DNA of 13,715 nt, from NCBI GenBank assembly GCA_030749275.1, contig JASMKJ010000465.1:1-13715 (forward strand), given 5' to 3'. Every line of letters starts with the position of its first letter. Within the stretch, counting starts at the first letter, position 1. The stretch is from Acidimicrobiales bacterium (lineage in GTDB: Bacteria > Actinomycetota > Acidimicrobiia > Acidimicrobiales > Poriferisodalaceae). Shown one piece after another: positions 3,544 through 13,561 of the stretch. A model generated the notes under the pieces. That model saw only the letters and a program-made list of their open reading frames with translations. It ran no database searches and was not told where the DNA came from. Position numbers and translations under genes: made by a program.

Positions 3544-4893
3544 TTACATACCTGACAACGCGACATCGGCTATTGCAATTGAGGCGACCCCTGATCCGGT
3601 CGGTAAAAATTCGAAGTCGCCGCCGATCGCAACAACATCTAGAAGCATTCTCTGAAGCGTTGAAGCGATGGTGGCTTCCCTAAAGGGTGCCCCCAACACG
3701 CCGTCCTTGATGTGGTGACCGTAGGCCCCCACGGAGAAGTCACCGCTCACCGGGTTAACTCCACTGTGTAAACCGTTGACGCCTCGAACGTATACTCCCG
3801 AACCAATTTGTGCGAATAGCTCGTTTCGATCACCAGTTCCCGGAACTAGGCAAAGCGCGTGTATTCCCACCCCTGGTGTGGACCGCGCACTCCGAACAGC
3901 CGAGCCTGTTGATTGAACTCCCGCGCGCCTAGCGGTGTAGGAGTTGTGCAAATAGTTGGACAGGACACCATCTTCGATTAGTAGGTTCTTGCGAGTAGCG
4001 AGACCTTCACCATCGTGGTTGTCAGCACCGAGCGACTCAATGTTTGTCGGGTCATCAAACAAGACCAGTTTGGGCGACGCGATTTGTTCACCCAAACGGT
4101 CCGCGAACGGTGACCTACCCTTTATCACCCGATCACCTGTGAGGGCACCGGCGATCGTTCCAAGAAAGGCAGCCGCTACGGAGGGCTCAAAGACGACGGT
4201 CAGTTGTTCTGATGCCGGCTTGGTAGCCCCCAACATTCCTGTGGCGTTCTCAACTGCTTCGGTGACGACGCGATCAAGATCCAACGCATCGGGCCGACGA
4301 GCTGCGTCTCCTGCGTATCCGATCTGCGTCTCGTCGCCGTCCACGGCGAGGGGCTGAACGCCTACTGAACAACTTCCGCCCTCACTATGTATTGATATCC
4401 CTGAAGTCGAAGCCAAAGCGAACTCGCCCCAACCATCCGACCAAGCCGCTGATCGAACGCTATTTACTCTCGGGTCAGATGATAAACATCTCTGTTCCAA
4501 CTCAATAGCCACTGAAGATCTCTCATTTTCAGTCACTTGAAGAACCGCTGGGTCAGAAAGGTCAAGGTTCGGTGGAACGACATCATCGGGAGCGGCAATA
4601 CCTTGATGGGGATCTCGTTCCGCGAATGTCAAATTCTCGCGAGCTTCTTCGACAAGCTGACTCAACACTTCGCTATCAAGTGAACCGGCGCTGGCGAATC
4701 CTTGTCGACCATCGATAACGATTCGGATTCCAGCCGCCTCAGACATCCCTGAGCGAACTGATTCGACCTGACCTGAATATGCCTTGACCGTCGTGGACCT
4801 GTTACGAGATACGCACACCTCAAGTTGCTCATTGTCGCGGGCCGCAGCTACCAGTTGGTCCGCTAATTCGGGAAGTTCGAGCCTCTTCGTCAA
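3544..4893 (-). CDS. pmbA: TldE/PmbA, non-catalytic partner of TldD peptidase
   Basis: Subunit of the TldD/TldE cytoplasmic metallopeptidase, which degrades unfolded peptides and, in enterobacteria, trims the microcin B17 leader and helps degrade the CcdA antitoxin. From TTG 4893 it is 449 aa, the family length. The frame is open 29 codons further upstream, but that part overlaps tldD and has no family resemblance. The TTG overlaps the tldD stop as TTGA, implying translational coupling. Typical family segments are VKAYSGQVESVRSG near the N-terminus and, in the C-terminal half, LTGDRVIKGRSPFADRLGEQ, the DNHDGEGLATRKN region, LIEDGVLSNYLHNSYTAR and SGDFSVGAYG. The HExxxH motif of TldD is absent, as expected for TldE. 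An intact pair with the gene upstream makes the assignment firm. Confidence 0.93.
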   Translation of the reverse strand: MTKRLELPELADQLVAAARDNEQLEVCVSRNRSTTVKAYSGQVESVRSGMSEAAGIRIVIDGRQGFASAGSLDSEVLSQLVEEARENLTFAERDPHQGIAAPDDVVPPNLDLSDPAVLQVTENERSSVAIELEQRCLSSDPRVNSVRSAAWSDGWGEFALASTSGISIHSEGGSCSVGVQPLAVDGDETQIGYAGDAARRPDALDLDRVVTEAVENATGMLGATKPASEQLTVVFEPSVAAAFLGTIAGALTGDRVIKGRSPFADRLGEQIASPKLVLFDDPTNIESLGADNHDGEGLATRKNLLIEDGVLSNYLHNSYTARRAGVQSTGSAVRSARSTPGVGIHALCLVPGTGDRNELFAQIGSGVYVRGVNGLHSGVNPVSGDFSVGAYGHHIKDGVLGAPFREATIASTLQRMLLDVVAIGGDFEFLPTGSGVASIAIADVALSGM

Positions 4894-6299
4894 CTTGCCG
4901 TACCGCCGATGGTCAGGGCTGCAACCCGCAGCGTCGGTTGACCATCGCCTACAGGTACTCCTTGACCGTCTTTGCCACAAGTACCTGGGCTTCCCATCGC
5001 AAAGTCATTTCCGATCACTTCAATGTGTCGAAGTACGTCGGGGCCATTACCAATTAGGTTGCCTTCCCTGAGAGGTGCTGTTATTTCGCCATTTTCGATG
5101 AGATAAGCCTCGGTCATACCGAAGACAAAGTCACCCGTAGCGGTGTTGACCTGACCCCCACCCAATTGGGCTACATAAACACCGTTCTGGGTGTCAGCAA
5201 TGATGTCCTGGGGTTCGGCCTCTCCGTTGGTTACATAAGTATTTGTCATCCGAACCATCGGGAGATGCTGATAACTCTGTCTTCGTCCATTTCCGGATGC
5301 AGGTCTTCCCTCTGATCGACTACGCAAGTGGTCCCACATGTAATCAGTCAGAACACCATCTTCAATCAGCACATTTTTTTGGGTTGGGCATCCTTCATCG
5401 TCAATGGCGACCGTTCCCCATTCAACTCCCATCGTTCCATCGTCAACCAACGTCACTGATGGGGCTGCCACAAGTTCTCCAATCCGGTCACGAAATACCG
5501 ATGCTCCCTTGTTGACAAGGTCAGCTTCAAGGCCATGTCCACAGGCCTCATGGAACAACACACCTCCCCCACCTCGTTCGATAACGACGGGAAGTTGACC
5601 ACTGGGAGCTGGCCTGGCCGACAACTTTGTTATCGCGCGTCCCGCCGCTCTGCGCGCCATGGCCTCCACGTCATGATCGTCAAACAACTCAAATCCGACT
5701 GTGTAACCCACAGTTTCTCGCCCAGTTTGCAAACCTTGGTCGCCGCTCGCCACGCAATTAACCGAGAGCAATGTGCGGGTTTGGTCGTCGGCGTTGAAGA
5801 CGCCATCGGTGTTGGCCACAAGCACCCTGCGGCGACCCTCCGAGTATCGGACGGTTACTTGAGTGATGGCCGCATCTTCGTCGCGAGCAGCGGTGTCTGT
5901 TTTTTGTAACAGTTCTACTTTGCGGGCTTTTGGCACCGAGGCCGGCAAGATCGCTGCTCTGGTTTCCGCTGTACCGGTACCACGAAGAGCGACCGGGGTG
6001 ATCTGCGCGCCTCCACGAGCTGCGGCTGCCGCCGCCTGCGCAGCCTCATTGAGACCAGTAGGAGACATATCAGAGGTATGAGCGAACCCGGTGGCGTCGC
6101 CGACTGTGACACGGATACCCGCGCCCAAGTCTCGGCTAGAAACCATTGCCTCGACGCGACCTTCGTCGAACTCAGTGGACGCACTCTGTCTATCTTCGAC
6201 GAACACCTCAGCCCACTCTCCCCCATTGCTCATCGCTGTGGAGAGCGCGTTTTGAATGATTTCTCGGTCCACCAGTGGTGAATTCATGCTTGCGCCCAT
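4890..6299 (-). CDS. tldD: TldD, catalytic subunit of TldD/TldE metallopeptidase
   Basis: Zinc peptidase subunit of 469 aa that forms a heterodimer with TldE. The zinc motif HEACGH is at 250-255 (H250, E251, H255) and the third ligand is probably C441 in GTCGKDGQ. The family ending GKDGQGVPVGDGQPTLR (442-458) and the tail LTIGGTA are intact. The N-terminal half has the beta-rich TldD fold with EFDEGRVEAMVSSRDLGAGIRV (43-64). ATG 6299 gives MGASMNSPLV; ATG 6287 is an equally possible start. No Shine-Dalgarno sequence is evident for either. It heads the run tldD-tldE-PHP-uppP and diverges from the membrane-protein gene on the other strand. Substrates in this organism are unknown, and no ribosomally made peptide precursor is visible nearby. 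Confidence 0.95.
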   Translation of the reverse strand: MGASMNSPLVDREIIQNALSTAMSNGGEWAEVFVEDRQSASTEFDEGRVEAMVSSRDLGAGIRVTVGDATGFAHTSDMSPTGLNEAAQAAAAAARGGAQITPVALRGTGTAETRAAILPASVPKARKVELLQKTDTAARDEDAAITQVTVRYSEGRRRVLVANTDGVFNADDQTRTLLSVNCVASGDQGLQTGRETVGYTVGFELFDDHDVEAMARRAAGRAITKLSARPAPSGQLPVVIERGGGGVLFHEACGHGLEADLVNKGASVFRDRIGELVAAPSVTLVDDGTMGVEWGTVAIDDEGCPTQKNVLIEDGVLTDYMWDHLRSRSEGRPASGNGRRQSYQHLPMVRMTNTYVTNGEAEPQDIIADTQNGVYVAQLGGGQVNTATGDFVFGMTEAYLIENGEITAPLREGNLIGNGPDVLRHIEVIGNDFAMGSPGTCGKDGQGVPVGDGQPTLRVAALTIGGTAS

Positions 6300-10200: not shown

Positions 10201-11391
10201 TTAACCGACTTCGGATCCAACGACGGACACGAACGATACACATGCCCCCGGTTGGCCGCCCAGGTTGTGCGTCAACCCGAGTGTCTTGTCTGAGTCGATT
10301 TGTCGCTCCGGAGGTGCCTCGCCTCTGAGCTGCAACCAACACTCAAAGAGCATCCTTAATCCTGATGCCCCAATCGGATGTCCGAAACTCTTGAGCCCGC
10401 CGTCAGGGTTTACTGGCAGATCACCGTCTAGGTCGAAAGTTCCATTGAGGGCTTCTTTCCAAGCGGTGCCTTCTTCAGCGAATCCCAGATCCTCCATGAG
10501 TACTAACTCGGTTGGGGTAAAGCAATCATGTACTTCAGCCATCGCTATTTGGCTTCGAGGATCGTTGATTCCTGCTTGTTTGTATGCCTCTTCTGCCGAG
10601 GCGCGGACTTCACGGAAAGTTGTGTAGTCGTAACTCGGGTCGAGAGCTCCAGTTGCTGGTCCTGAAGAAAAGCTCAGGGCCTTCACGTACAGGGGCTTGT
10701 CTGTGTAGCGATGGGCATCCTCGGCGCGCACTATCACCGCTGCGGCGGACCCGTCACTGACGCCTGAGCAATCGAAGATTCCTAAGGGGCCGGCTACTAG
10801 CGGCGAGCCCGCAATTGTTTCCTTTGCCACTTCTTTGCGGAACTGAGCTCGGGGGTTTAGGGCACCATTCTTGTGATTCTTCCAAGCAATCCGAGTCAGA
10901 ACCTCTTTCATGGTTTCATCGTCAAGACCGTGCTTGTGGGCATATGCGGGAGCCAACAGGCTGAACGTCGCAGGTGCAGTCAAAGATGAATCGGTGCCAT
11001 CGCTTGGTGGACGACTGCCGGTGAGGCCTGAATATCCGCTGTCTTTCAGCTTCTCAACTCCGATCGCCATGACTACGTCATAGGCACCTGATGCCACCGC
11101 GTAGCAAGCATTTCGGAATGCTTCGGAACCCGTTGCGCACATATTTTCCAGTCGGCTTACAGGTTTGTAGTCAAGCTGTAACGGTTTTGAGAGTGTTAAC
11201 CCGGAAACTCCCGATCCCATTGTGCCTAACCAAAAAGCGTCAATATCGTCTTGTGTTACTCCGGCCGAGGCGTACGCCTCGTGTGCTGCGTCAACGAGCA
11301 TGTCGTCGGCGCCTTTATCCCAGTGCTCGCCGAAGGGCGTGCAGCCCATGCCGACGATAGCGACCTGGTCTTTTATGCCATGTGAGGCCAT
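10201..11391 (-). CDS. thiolase-family protein (SCP2/lipid-transfer type)
   Basis: Thiolase-superfamily enzyme of 396 aa, closest by pattern to SCP-x/lipid-transfer-protein thiolases and to the archaeal-type acetoacetyl-CoA thiolases that work with DUF35 proteins. All catalytic elements are present: nucleophile C85 in NMCATGSEAF, H288 in HDCFTPTE (288-295), H338 in FGHPIGASG (336-344), and the second cysteine C384 in HNLGGQPGAC (375-384). It should therefore be able to form or cleave acyl-CoA C-C bonds; the chain substrate is unknown. ATG 11391 has a good AAGGA at 11400-11404, 8 nt away. It lies 76 bp downstream of the HMGCS-like/DUF35 gene, whose product is a likely partner by analogy with archaeal thiolase-DUF35-HMGCS complexes and the Ltp2-ChsH2 steroid aldolase. 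Generic 'acetyl-CoA acetyltransferase' naming would over-specify it. Confidence 0.88.
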   Translation of the reverse strand: MASHGIKDQVAIVGMGCTPFGEHWDKGADDMLVDAAHEAYASAGVTQDDIDAFWLGTMGSGVSGLTLSKPLQLDYKPVSRLENMCATGSEAFRNACYAVASGAYDVVMAIGVEKLKDSGYSGLTGSRPPSDGTDSSLTAPATFSLLAPAYAHKHGLDDETMKEVLTRIAWKNHKNGALNPRAQFRKEVAKETIAGSPLVAGPLGIFDCSGVSDGSAAAVIVRAEDAHRYTDKPLYVKALSFSSGPATGALDPSYDYTTFREVRASAEEAYKQAGINDPRSQIAMAEVHDCFTPTELVLMEDLGFAEEGTAWKEALNGTFDLDGDLPVNPDGGLKSFGHPIGASGLRMLFECWLQLRGEAPPERQIDSDKTLGLTHNLGGQPGACVSFVSVVGSEVG

Positions 11392-11467: not shown

Positions 11468-12865
11468 TCATTCTGAGAACGGACGAGCTTTCCAGAAGTA
11501 GTTGTGGATTCCTTGTGCGGTGAACAAACGACGGAACGTCATTTGTACCCGGTCTCCGATCTTGACCTCATCTGGGTCGACGTCGGTCATTTCGGCTTGG
11601 AACCTTCCACCTCCGTCAAAGTCGATTACAACCGCTACGGTCGGAGGCGACAATGAAAAGGCCAAATAGTCGACGGTGAAGGTGGCAATAGTCGCAGGTG
11701 TATCTGCCATTCTCACGCGCTCCATGTCGTCGACTGCCCCACCATCCATTGATACTCGCATTGGGGGCAGATGGATCGCTCCTGATGACCGGTCGCGCGA
11801 TCCGACAAACGCGTATTTCCAATCTTCGGAACGAAATGCCGGTGGAGCACCCGGGCGGTCCGGGTCGGGACGTCTCGGCGGTTCTCGGTCAAGGAAACCA
11901 CGCCAGGTGAGATACAAGTTGTAATCGAGATTGTCGCTTCCATTCTCAATCTGTGATTCAACCGTCGCGAATGGGGTGTAGTCGCTGATCGCGTCCGTCG
12001 TGCGGAGCACAACGGCGTATGCGCCGTCGGCCAAATGGGTGCAGAGAATGGTCTCTCCGGGCGCTGCTTCATCCAAGGCTGAGGCAAGTAGGAGAGGAAG
12101 TTGGGCGGTTCCTGGGTTCCCGATCCGTCCTGTGAGGTCGTCGACCAACTTGTCACCGGCAATCTTGGACAAACTCCTAACGGCCCGGGCATGAAGCCCC
12201 GCGATAATGACCTTATCCACGTCTTCCAGTCCGATGTTGGCCTCCTTGGTCGCACGCTCGATGGCATCGTTGGCTAGCGCGAGGTAGGCCTGCTCACCGA
12301 AACGTTCTTCCCAAATTCGACTTGAGCTTTCTCCTGGCAACCGGTACCGATCTAAGAATTCGCCTGTGGACGCAGCAACACCCATGGCGTGGGCGATCAC
12401 CGGCGCATCTTCGTCATCGCCAAATAACAGCGCCGCTGCCGCATCACCGCCGCCACTTTCGTCGTTGCTCGTTGGATTGCCTGTTCTGAGGTCCGATACA
12501 ACTGCCATTGAAACTCCGGCCGTACCGATCGCCCCGCGGATTGCGGCTTCTGATGATCGCGCTGAGCCTCCAGCGTCCACTGCCCATGTTTCTTGCGGAA
12601 GGTCGAGTGCCGCCTGGATGGCGGTAGCGTTGGTTTTATCTAGATAGGCCGGGTTGGCTGTCGCGAACCATATTGAAGACGGCGTCACGCTGCTTGCTCG
12701 CAATGCGCTGCGCGCTGCTTCGACACCCATGGTCGTAGTGTCTTCGTCGAAACTGGCCACGGCACGGTGGCCTCGACCTCCGCCCGCACCCATGGCGGCT
12801 GTGATCTTTGCTCGATCTAGTCGGTAGTAGGGCACATAGGTCCCATATCCAATGATGCCTCTCAC
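11468..12865 (-). CDS. HMG-CoA-synthase-like domain fused to DUF35 OB-fold, key cysteines missing
   Basis: Two-part protein of 465 aa from GTG 12865. Residues 1 to about 330 have the HMG-CoA synthase/KAS III thiolase-like fold: GIIGYGTYVPYYRL (3-16), DEDTTTMGVEAAR (40-52), LDKTNATAIQAAL (75-87), GNPGTAQLPLLLASALD (249-265) and a HLADGAYAVVL end (277-287). Residues 345-465 are a DUF35 region ending in an OB-fold (PATIATFTVDYLAFS, then GDRVQMTFRRLF). In catalytic relatives a cysteine follows the GGS of the active-site loop; here it is GGS-A102-R. The DUF35 zinc ribbon, normally C-x2-C-x10-C-x2-C, reads D358, S361, S372, G375 around HLPP (365-368). The only cysteine in the whole protein is C275. 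A true mevalonate enzyme is therefore unlikely; a non-catalytic partner of the downstream thiolase is my inference. It follows nfuA by 78 bp. Confidence 0.85.
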   Translation of the reverse strand: MRGIIGYGTYVPYYRLDRAKITAAMGAGGGRGHRAVASFDEDTTTMGVEAARSALRASSVTPSSIWFATANPAYLDKTNATAIQAALDLPQETWAVDAGGSARSSEAAIRGAIGTAGVSMAVVSDLRTGNPTSNDESGGGDAAAALLFGDDEDAPVIAHAMGVAASTGEFLDRYRLPGESSSRIWEERFGEQAYLALANDAIERATKEANIGLEDVDKVIIAGLHARAVRSLSKIAGDKLVDDLTGRIGNPGTAQLPLLLASALDEAAPGETILCTHLADGAYAVVLRTTDAISDYTPFATVESQIENGSDNLDYNLYLTWRGFLDREPPRRPDPDRPGAPPAFRSEDWKYAFVGSRDRSSGAIHLPPMRVSMDGGAVDDMERVRMADTPATIATFTVDYLAFSLSPPTVAVVIDFDGGGRFQAEMTDVDPDEVKIGDRVQMTFRRLFTAQGIHNYFWKARPFSE

Positions 12866-12943: not shown

Positions 12944-13561
12944 TTAGGTGGCCGCGAAATAAGGATTTTCGCCCGAGGTGTGATCTGTGATGTCGAGGAC
13001 ATGTTCAACACCATCGATCAGTTCTGTCAGGGTTTTTTCTATTCCGGCAGTAACAGTCGCGTTTGCCATTCCGCAACCCTGACATCCGCCGCCAAGTTTC
13101 ACTAAGACGGTCGAGCCTTCCACGCGAACTAGTTCGGCGAAACCGCCATGAGCCGCAATAGAAGGATTGATTCTTTTCACCAGTACCTCTTGGACTTGCT
13201 CCTCGATGGTCCCGGATAGCTCGAGTGCGGCGGTGGGTCCAAGTTCCGGACGATTCGGGTTACGTAGCACCAAGCCGGGTTGGTTCGCGTTACTCGGAAC
13301 GTCAAGCGTAGCTCCTTCCAGTTTTGCTACATCTCGACTCGGAACCAAAACCGTCAAGCCCTCCCCTACGTGGGTTGGAACGTCTTCGGGATCGGCTTCT
13401 TCGAGCACTTCGAAGGCGAGGTCATAGGAATAATCAACACCTTGGGTCCCAACGACTTCGATCCGCAAAGCGAGTTGAGCCGCGTCGTCTTCACCTGCGC
13501 GCAACTCGAGCACTTTTTCCAGTGCTGACTCTGTGACACTTACGATTTGTCTTTCGGACAC
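12944..13561 (-). CDS. nfuA: NfuA-type Fe-S carrier protein (degenerate A-type domain + NifU domain)
   Basis: Iron-sulphur cluster carrier of 205 aa that delivers [4Fe-4S] clusters to apo-enzymes. Residues 1 to about 100 are an A-type (IscA/HesB-like) domain without cysteines, as in E. coli NfuA, where it recognises targets. Residues 117-195 are a NifU C-terminal domain with HGGFAELV (138-145) and the cluster-binding GGGCQGCGMA (157-166), cysteines C160 and C163, which are the only cysteines of the protein. The start is GTG 13561; an ATG two bases further upstream is in another frame. There is no clear Shine-Dalgarno sequence, but TAGGCT lies 6 nt before the GTG. It heads the minus-strand run that continues with the HMGCS-like and thiolase genes, though a functional link between Fe-S delivery and those two is not evident. 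MoaA nearby is one plausible Fe-S client. Confidence 0.93.
   Translation of the reverse strand: MSERQIVSVTESALEKVLELRAGEDDAAQLALRIEVVGTQGVDYSYDLAFEVLEEADPEDVPTHVGEGLTVLVPSRDVAKLEGATLDVPSNANQPGLVLRNPNRPELGPTAALELSGTIEEQVQEVLVKRINPSIAAHGGFAELVRVEGSTVLVKLGGGCQGCGMANATVTAGIEKTLTELIDGVEHVLDITDHTSGENPYFAAT

Follow-up and report, generated by a model that had tools for sequence, protein, structure and literature searches.

A fused HMG-CoA synthase-like/DUF35 protein lacking catalytic and zinc-binding residues is probably the non-catalytic subunit of a two-gene thiolase

In archaea, acetoacetyl-CoA thiolase, hydroxymethylglutaryl-coenzyme A (HMG-CoA) synthase (HMGCS) and a DUF35 protein form a complex of the mevalonate pathway (6ESQ/6ET9). 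Its HMGCS subunit is the PDB chain closest in sequence to the fused HMGCS-like/DUF35 protein analyzed here, which is encoded at 11468..12865 on the minus strand of a 13,715-nucleotide stretch of Acidimicrobiales DNA (contig JASMKJ010000465.1; this whole stretch is called the window). Unlike the target, the archaeal complex is unfused and its DUF35 protein has four cysteines. Its HMGCS works with Cys114 and Glu82 (PMC6392133, in the sections consulted, as for all citations of this source below), and the target has neither.

A dead HMGCS-like subunit is already known from the published PhlABC acylase (PMC6392133). PhlABC (PpATase, 5M3K/5MG5) and CsATase (9SKH) are multicomponent Friedel-Crafts acylases encoded by three genes, in comparison with two in the target system, and PhlABC acylates phenols independently of CoA. 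According to the same sections of PMC6392133, only residues of PhlC act, PhlA having no direct role in the transfer of the acyl group. The complex is believed to require both PhlA and PhlB, and mixing the singly expressed subunits yields no activity. PhlB retains a Cys4 zinc site (PMC6392133), whereas the DUF35 part of the target has no zinc ligands. Like PhlABC, the target pair combines an HMGCS-like subunit devoid of the Cys and Glu with a thiolase whose Cys is intact, although PhlA lies outside the clade of the target family. The MucABC acyltransferase of Streptococcus macacae (9VBO/9VBT), made of separate chains, is more distant (20% identity).

A DUF35 protein docked on a thiolase-fold enzyme, as proposed for the target, is also found in the steroid aldolases Ltp2-ChsH2 and Sal-Shy and in BbsAB. 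In all of these, unlike the target, zinc is present and there is no HMGCS-like domain; DUF35 is tied to a hydratase in the two aldolases, and the DUF35 protein BbsA stands alone. In the part of PMC12329534 used here, the thiolase-fold enzyme Sal performs retro-aldol cleavage with Tyr302 and Cys304, and the DUF35 zinc finger of Sal-Shy shapes the substrate cleft of its partner. The literature searched, which covered few subscription papers, gave no account of the fused family, save for an unplaced gene in the edc paper discussed below.

The target probably serves as the non-catalytic subunit in a thiolase system of two genes, a single chain resembling a dead PhlA joined to PhlB that would shape an active thiolase. 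A dead catalytic center, a large conserved family and an adjoining intact thiolase make it most likely the partner of that thiolase and not a synthase. The gene has a GTG start and a stop codon at 11468-11470, and encodes 465 aa. Its predicted folds are those of an HMG-CoA synthase and, for DUF35, of a ribbon and an oligonucleotide/oligosaccharide-binding (OB) fold. It can be divided, all on the minus strand, into a domain like HMGCS and β-ketoacyl-ACP synthase III (KAS III) (residues 1-321, 11903..12865), a linker (residues 322-345, RGFLDREPPRRPDP..., 11831..11902), a DUF35 ribbon without zinc ligands (residues 346-385, 11711..11830; aligned to 6esq_E and to CxxC...CxxC relatives) and the OB-fold (residues 386-465, 11471..11710). 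In Pfam, PF01796 (DUF35, ChsH2 C-terminal OB-fold) scores 48.8 bits, above its gathering score of 27.1, and the match to the KAS III C-terminus stays under the cut-off. In NCBIfam, NF003274 (archaeal HMG-CoA synthase) reaches 140.9 bits and TIGR00748 95.9 bits, missing their cut-offs of 244 and 353. The ranking of PDB sequences places the 6ESQ HMGCS first, then PhlA of the two acylases and MucA; the C-terminal part is matched by the DUF35 protein of 6ESQ. The fusion into one chain, pointed out in a previous sequence-only reading, is real, but it is family-wide and no novelty of the source genome.

All three positions of the HMG-CoA-synthase triad are Ala in the target: Glu is replaced by A70 (12656..12658), Cys by A102 (12560..12562) and His by A222 (12200..12202, all minus strand). 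These columns were assigned by HMMER and MAFFT alignments to the 6ESQ HMGCS, S. aureus MvaS and PhlA. In PhlA, they hold Cys83, Gly115 and Gln, of which the first two match the published assignment (PMC6392133, section 6). The sequence-only reading had correctly recognized the missing Cys in the GGS-A-R loop and the replaced Glu, and had overlooked the loss of His. H225, conserved three residues after A222, was rejected as the catalytic His, as the alignments set it on the Asn of the 6ESQ HQPN motif.

These losses are shared by the whole sampled family. A protein search scored 8000 candidates, 7980 of them relatives of every degree at E <0.001, and the best 120 with the query form the close set. 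The wide set, in which identity ranges between 90% and about 25%, consists of the target and 111 of 130 loci; loci numbered below L019, which are near the target, and L129, which has no match, were excluded. Position 102 is never Cys in the close set (121/121 rows), and no triad residue is found in any of the 112 wide rows. Their residue at position 102 is Pro, Val, Leu, Ala, Thr, Ile, Ser or Gly, none of which looks catalytic. Cys and Glu are likewise absent from the 15 aligned plasmid relatives. Five of these (L164, L165, L170, L174 and L175) have Gln in place of the nucleophile, and the Halostagnicola plasmid member (L176) retains His at the His position.

An active HMG-CoA synthase using another nucleophile (S101, S104 or C275) is very unlikely. 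The HMGCS fold and the sub-threshold NF003274 match would suit such an enzyme, and Ser is found at S101 in 75 and at S104 in 84 of the 112 wide rows. However, Glu and His are also gone, S101 becomes Ala in 22 rows and S104 in 16, and both the NF003274 and TIGR00748 cut-offs are missed. C275 (12041..12043, minus strand) is, as noted earlier, the sole cysteine of the target. Its column holds Cys in 25/121 close rows and only 3/112 wide rows, so that it was rejected as a substitute nucleophile. Across genomes, the NF003274 cut-off is passed in none of 296 of the phylum, in comparison with 3 of 14 control genomes. Small or hydrophobic residues represent the family state, which is one half of what the earlier reading would have taken as a refutation; of the other half, HMGCS activity, there is no sign here.

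A role in the mevalonate pathway was also rejected. HMG-CoA reductase (PF00368) was not found in the source assembly (90% complete), and the window encodes DXS of the methylerythritol phosphate route. LytB/IspH has no match in the source assembly (G000) either, yet it is present in 20/20 relatives, which indicates an assembly gap; the absence of PF00368 is thus only as reliable as a 90%-complete assembly. With no triad, no HMG-CoA reductase found and DXS present, a channelling of acetoacetyl-CoA to HMG-CoA, described for the archaeal complex and evoked in the sequence-only reading, is unlikely for the target pair.

The same reading had called the protein degenerate. A decaying gene, left over from a bacterial mevalonate complex and retained through linkage to the thiolase, would explain why the catalytic and metal sites are both lost in the target sequence. 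This explanation has hardly any probability, as the members of a large family share these losses, the replacement residues are near-invariant, zinc-bearing relatives are Cys-less too, and no stop occurs within the strong matches. Against 16 close relatives, the non-synonymous divergence (dN) of the target is 0.047-0.076; the synonymous divergence (dS) is saturated in 13 comparisons, and the three finite ones give a dN/dS of 0.026-0.032. The thiolase evolves slowest, and the OB part more slowly than the HMGCS-like part. Judged by these rates, the target gene is under purifying selection, not decaying.

The DUF35 part has also lost its metal site. All DUF35 proteins structurally characterized up to 2019 bind zinc, according to the part of PMC6996347 consulted. 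In the target, the four ligand positions are D358 (11792..11794), S361 (11783..11785), S372 (11750..11752) and G375 (11741..11743, all minus strand), with P367-P368 between the two pairs, as the earlier reading had it. The close set is nearly uniform at these positions (D in 121 rows; S in 104 and T in 17; S in 121; G in 121). In the wide set, the cysteines are lost all or none: 35 of the 108 rows longer than 400 aa have four and 73 have none, the remaining four rows having no DUF35 part. The active-site Cys is also missing from relatives whose CxxC...CxxC ribbon is complete (a zinc-bearing relative is that of Rhodococcus opacus PD630), which places the loss of the nucleophile before that of zinc. 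By this comparison, the nucleophile loss is the first and family-wide event, and the zinc loss a later one.

A tree of 75 rows, built by a quick method with the ribbon columns excluded and with long branches and open forks, requires at least two changes of zinc state, one of which is presumably due to the odd row L125. The idea that the family lost zinc only once was rejected, because sphingomonads outside this tree are also zinc-less or zinc-poor: the plasmid members of Sphingopyxis (L168) and N. resinovorum (L173) have no ribbon cysteine and that of Sphingomonas paeninsulae (L170) has one. The zinc loss in the clade of the target is therefore not unique.

The partner thiolase (396 aa, 10201..11391, minus strand) lies 76 nt downstream of the target and matches NF004810 with 609.3 bits (cut-off 403); its PDB relatives include 7yvy and 6esq_A. 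As predicted earlier, it appears intact: the nucleophile Cys85 (11137..11139), His288 (10528..10530) and His338 (10378..10380, all minus strand) are present in 119/119 aligned rows. These rows comprise 118 of 130 loci, those below 200 bits, below 330 aa or with stops being dropped, and two of them are the window's own (one as L001).

The two genes travel together. Some match to the target occurs in 83 of 396 genomes of the phylum and is strong in 53 (E ≤1.1e-48; this tally excludes weaker matches and the fragment at G187:C130). All 53 have an NF004810 thiolase above the cut-off, which is found in 55 genomes altogether. At 61 of 63 target loci the thiolase is directly downstream, with 12-231 nt between the matches, and the other two reach contig ends. 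It is downstream on the same strand in 79 of 80 genome-contig loci, 0.86-2.2 kb away in six and as a partial match in nine; the 80th contig ends 195 nt past the gene. Among loci L082-L130, the target is present in 48 of 49 and a thiolase match in all 48. The thiolase also adjoins the target in all 16 plasmid regions examined (of 48 records); on the haloarchaeal plasmids L166 and L176, the fused homologue has it upstream rather than downstream. On this record of gene order, the thiolase partnership is near-obligate. One genome carries two fusion-thiolase pairs in tandem (G117:C1:1365348-1371251). On a Paraburkholderia plasmid (L174, 6448-7634), the thiolase match falls in two overlapping pieces with no gene listed, possibly a frameshift.

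Homology to 6ESQ and PhlABC supports the scaffold-like role suggested by the sequence-only reading. The HMGCS-like domain would dimerize, and the OB-fold, the ribbon and the conserved REPPRRPDP linker would dock onto the thiolase dimer, with the dead HMGCS pocket possibly helping to line a shared CoA/acyl cavity. All chemistry, the Claisen cleavage or condensation of a 3-oxoacyl-CoA, would then take place at Cys85/His288/His338 of the thiolase. The linker is proposed as a docking tail because the N-terminal tail of PhlB is buried (PMC6392133). Its mean top-residue share is 0.84 (OB part, 0.82; residues 1-321, 0.68), and despite this high conservation it is modelled with low confidence (predicted local distance difference test, pLDDT, 40-61). 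In the target clade, the zinc cluster was replaced as a unit, probably with the ribbon fold kept and the shaping of the thiolase pocket changed. The Sal-Shy zinc finger that shapes its partner's cleft suggests that the metal-free ribbon tunes substrate choice.

Several observations weigh against a purely non-catalytic subunit tied to its thiolase. The dN is higher in the HMGCS-like domain (0.061-0.094) than in the OB part (0.012-0.043), and this domain retains strongly conserved polar residues (D40, E41, D42, E136 and R175) that could serve a chemistry. The His position is still His in 2 of the 15 plasmid rows. The two genomes that complete the 55 are G130, with an NF004810 thiolase (463 bits, G130:C331:33551-34696) and no partner match, and G382, whose thiolase borders the edge of a contig and whose sole partner match is weak and lies in another place. 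In 30 other genomes, all partner matches are weaker or partial, and their thiolases are below the NF004810 cut-off or untallied. At the window's own locus, the other neighbors (a NifU-domain protein and DXS) point to no acyl-CoA pathway.

The HMGCS-like pocket might instead be a rebuilt second active site, feeding the thiolase by a nucleophile-free reaction such as hydration, retro-aldol cleavage, decarboxylation or CoA-thioester hydrolysis. Polar residues conserved in the family where 6ESQ differs would fit this (R127 and D141 in 103 of 112 rows each, R173 in 90, E186 in 94 and D280 in 89). Gln at the Cys position in the five plasmid rows would fit it too, the change from Cys to Gln being a mark of decarboxylating ketosynthases. 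The re-purposing of a thiolase fold has a precedent in Sal (PMC12329534). But position 102 varies freely (P, V, L, A, T, I), as expected for a filler, and the dead PhlA has no direct role in PhlABC acyl transfer (PMC6392133), so that we regard a rebuilt site as unlikely. Somewhat less likely still is a CoA-independent C-acyltransferase like PhlABC or MucABC in place of a thiolase. PhlA and MucA are indeed the closest solved relatives with a dead HMGCS. However, the model matched by the partner, NF004810, is that of an acetyl-CoA acetyltransferase, the neighbors of the relatives are acyl-CoA metabolism genes, and PhlA falls outside the family clade of 39 rows (SH-like approximate likelihood ratio test, SH-aLRT, 99) in a quick tree with long branches, where PhlA, MucA and 6ESQ branch in no firm order.

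As the non-catalytic partner of a thiolase, the target would act in a pathway that can be approached from its relatives. Their neighbors include acyl-CoA dehydrogenases, hydratases, short-chain dehydrogenases/reductases (SDRs), CoA ligases, P450s and ring-hydroxylating dioxygenases, which makes the breakdown of CoA-bound acids likely; the thiolase would thus work in the direction of thiolytic cleavage. A conserved wider operon was rejected, since only the fusion-thiolase pair recurs widely among L082-L130 (about 1.5 kb of flank each in the nine loci L082-L090). Judged from their representatives, the next two gene clusters there (30 and 15 loci) resemble antisense shadows of the pair, and enoyl-CoA hydratase, SDR and AMP-binding genes each occur in 6-7 loci.

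On plasmid p3 of Novosphingobium sp. ES2-1, described as an oestradiol degrader in the part of PMC12507874 consulted, a family member and its thiolase (L161, 8992-11549) lie in an edc-like oestradiol cluster. This member is recognized by tblastn (E 4e-18), has lost all three triad residues and is about 29% identical to the target; it has four ribbon cysteines, the first pair one residue closer. The gene order is that of OpA in the N. tardaugens edc cluster, the member being followed by an acetyl-CoA acetyltransferase. By this gene order alone, and not by the sequence of EGO55_13555, it corresponds to the HMGCS-like gene EGO55_13555, which the edc authors could not place, as stated in the part of PMC7793797 consulted. 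As the aligned members all lack Cys and Glu and nearly always adjoin a thiolase, a testable role is offered for one of two unplaced edc genes.

Family members are named “hydroxymethylglutaryl-CoA synthase” or “OB-fold domain-containing protein”, and pathway reconstruction can thus mistake them for condensing enzymes. Assays of such thiolases alone may fail, as with mixed, singly expressed PhlA, PhlB and PhlC, and the zinc-less clade provides a natural comparison for the role of zinc in the bridge domain. Tentatively, and with rather less confidence than in the role of the target itself, these fusions could be seen as thiolase-specificity subunits forming a large class, so far overlooked, in Actinomycetota, Pseudomonadota and haloarchaea. 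Some lineages, including that of the target, would have gone on to a metal-free ribbon, the zinc ribbon being dispensable and tunable, and at the far end the emptied pocket might form a second, nucleophile-free catalytic site. These taxa were taken from the titles of the 80 genome-contig loci and the plasmid records. One locus titled Bifidobacterium breve (L078) resembles loci of Acidimicrobiia metagenome-assembled genomes (MAGs) and is probably a mislabelled MAG.

Elsewhere in the window, the gene of the NifU-domain protein (12944-13561) lies upstream of the target, and a homologue is upstream in 58 of the 80 genome-contig loci. Two overlapping minus-strand open reading frames (3544-4980 and 4890-6299) resemble, by eye, a TldD/PmbA pair.
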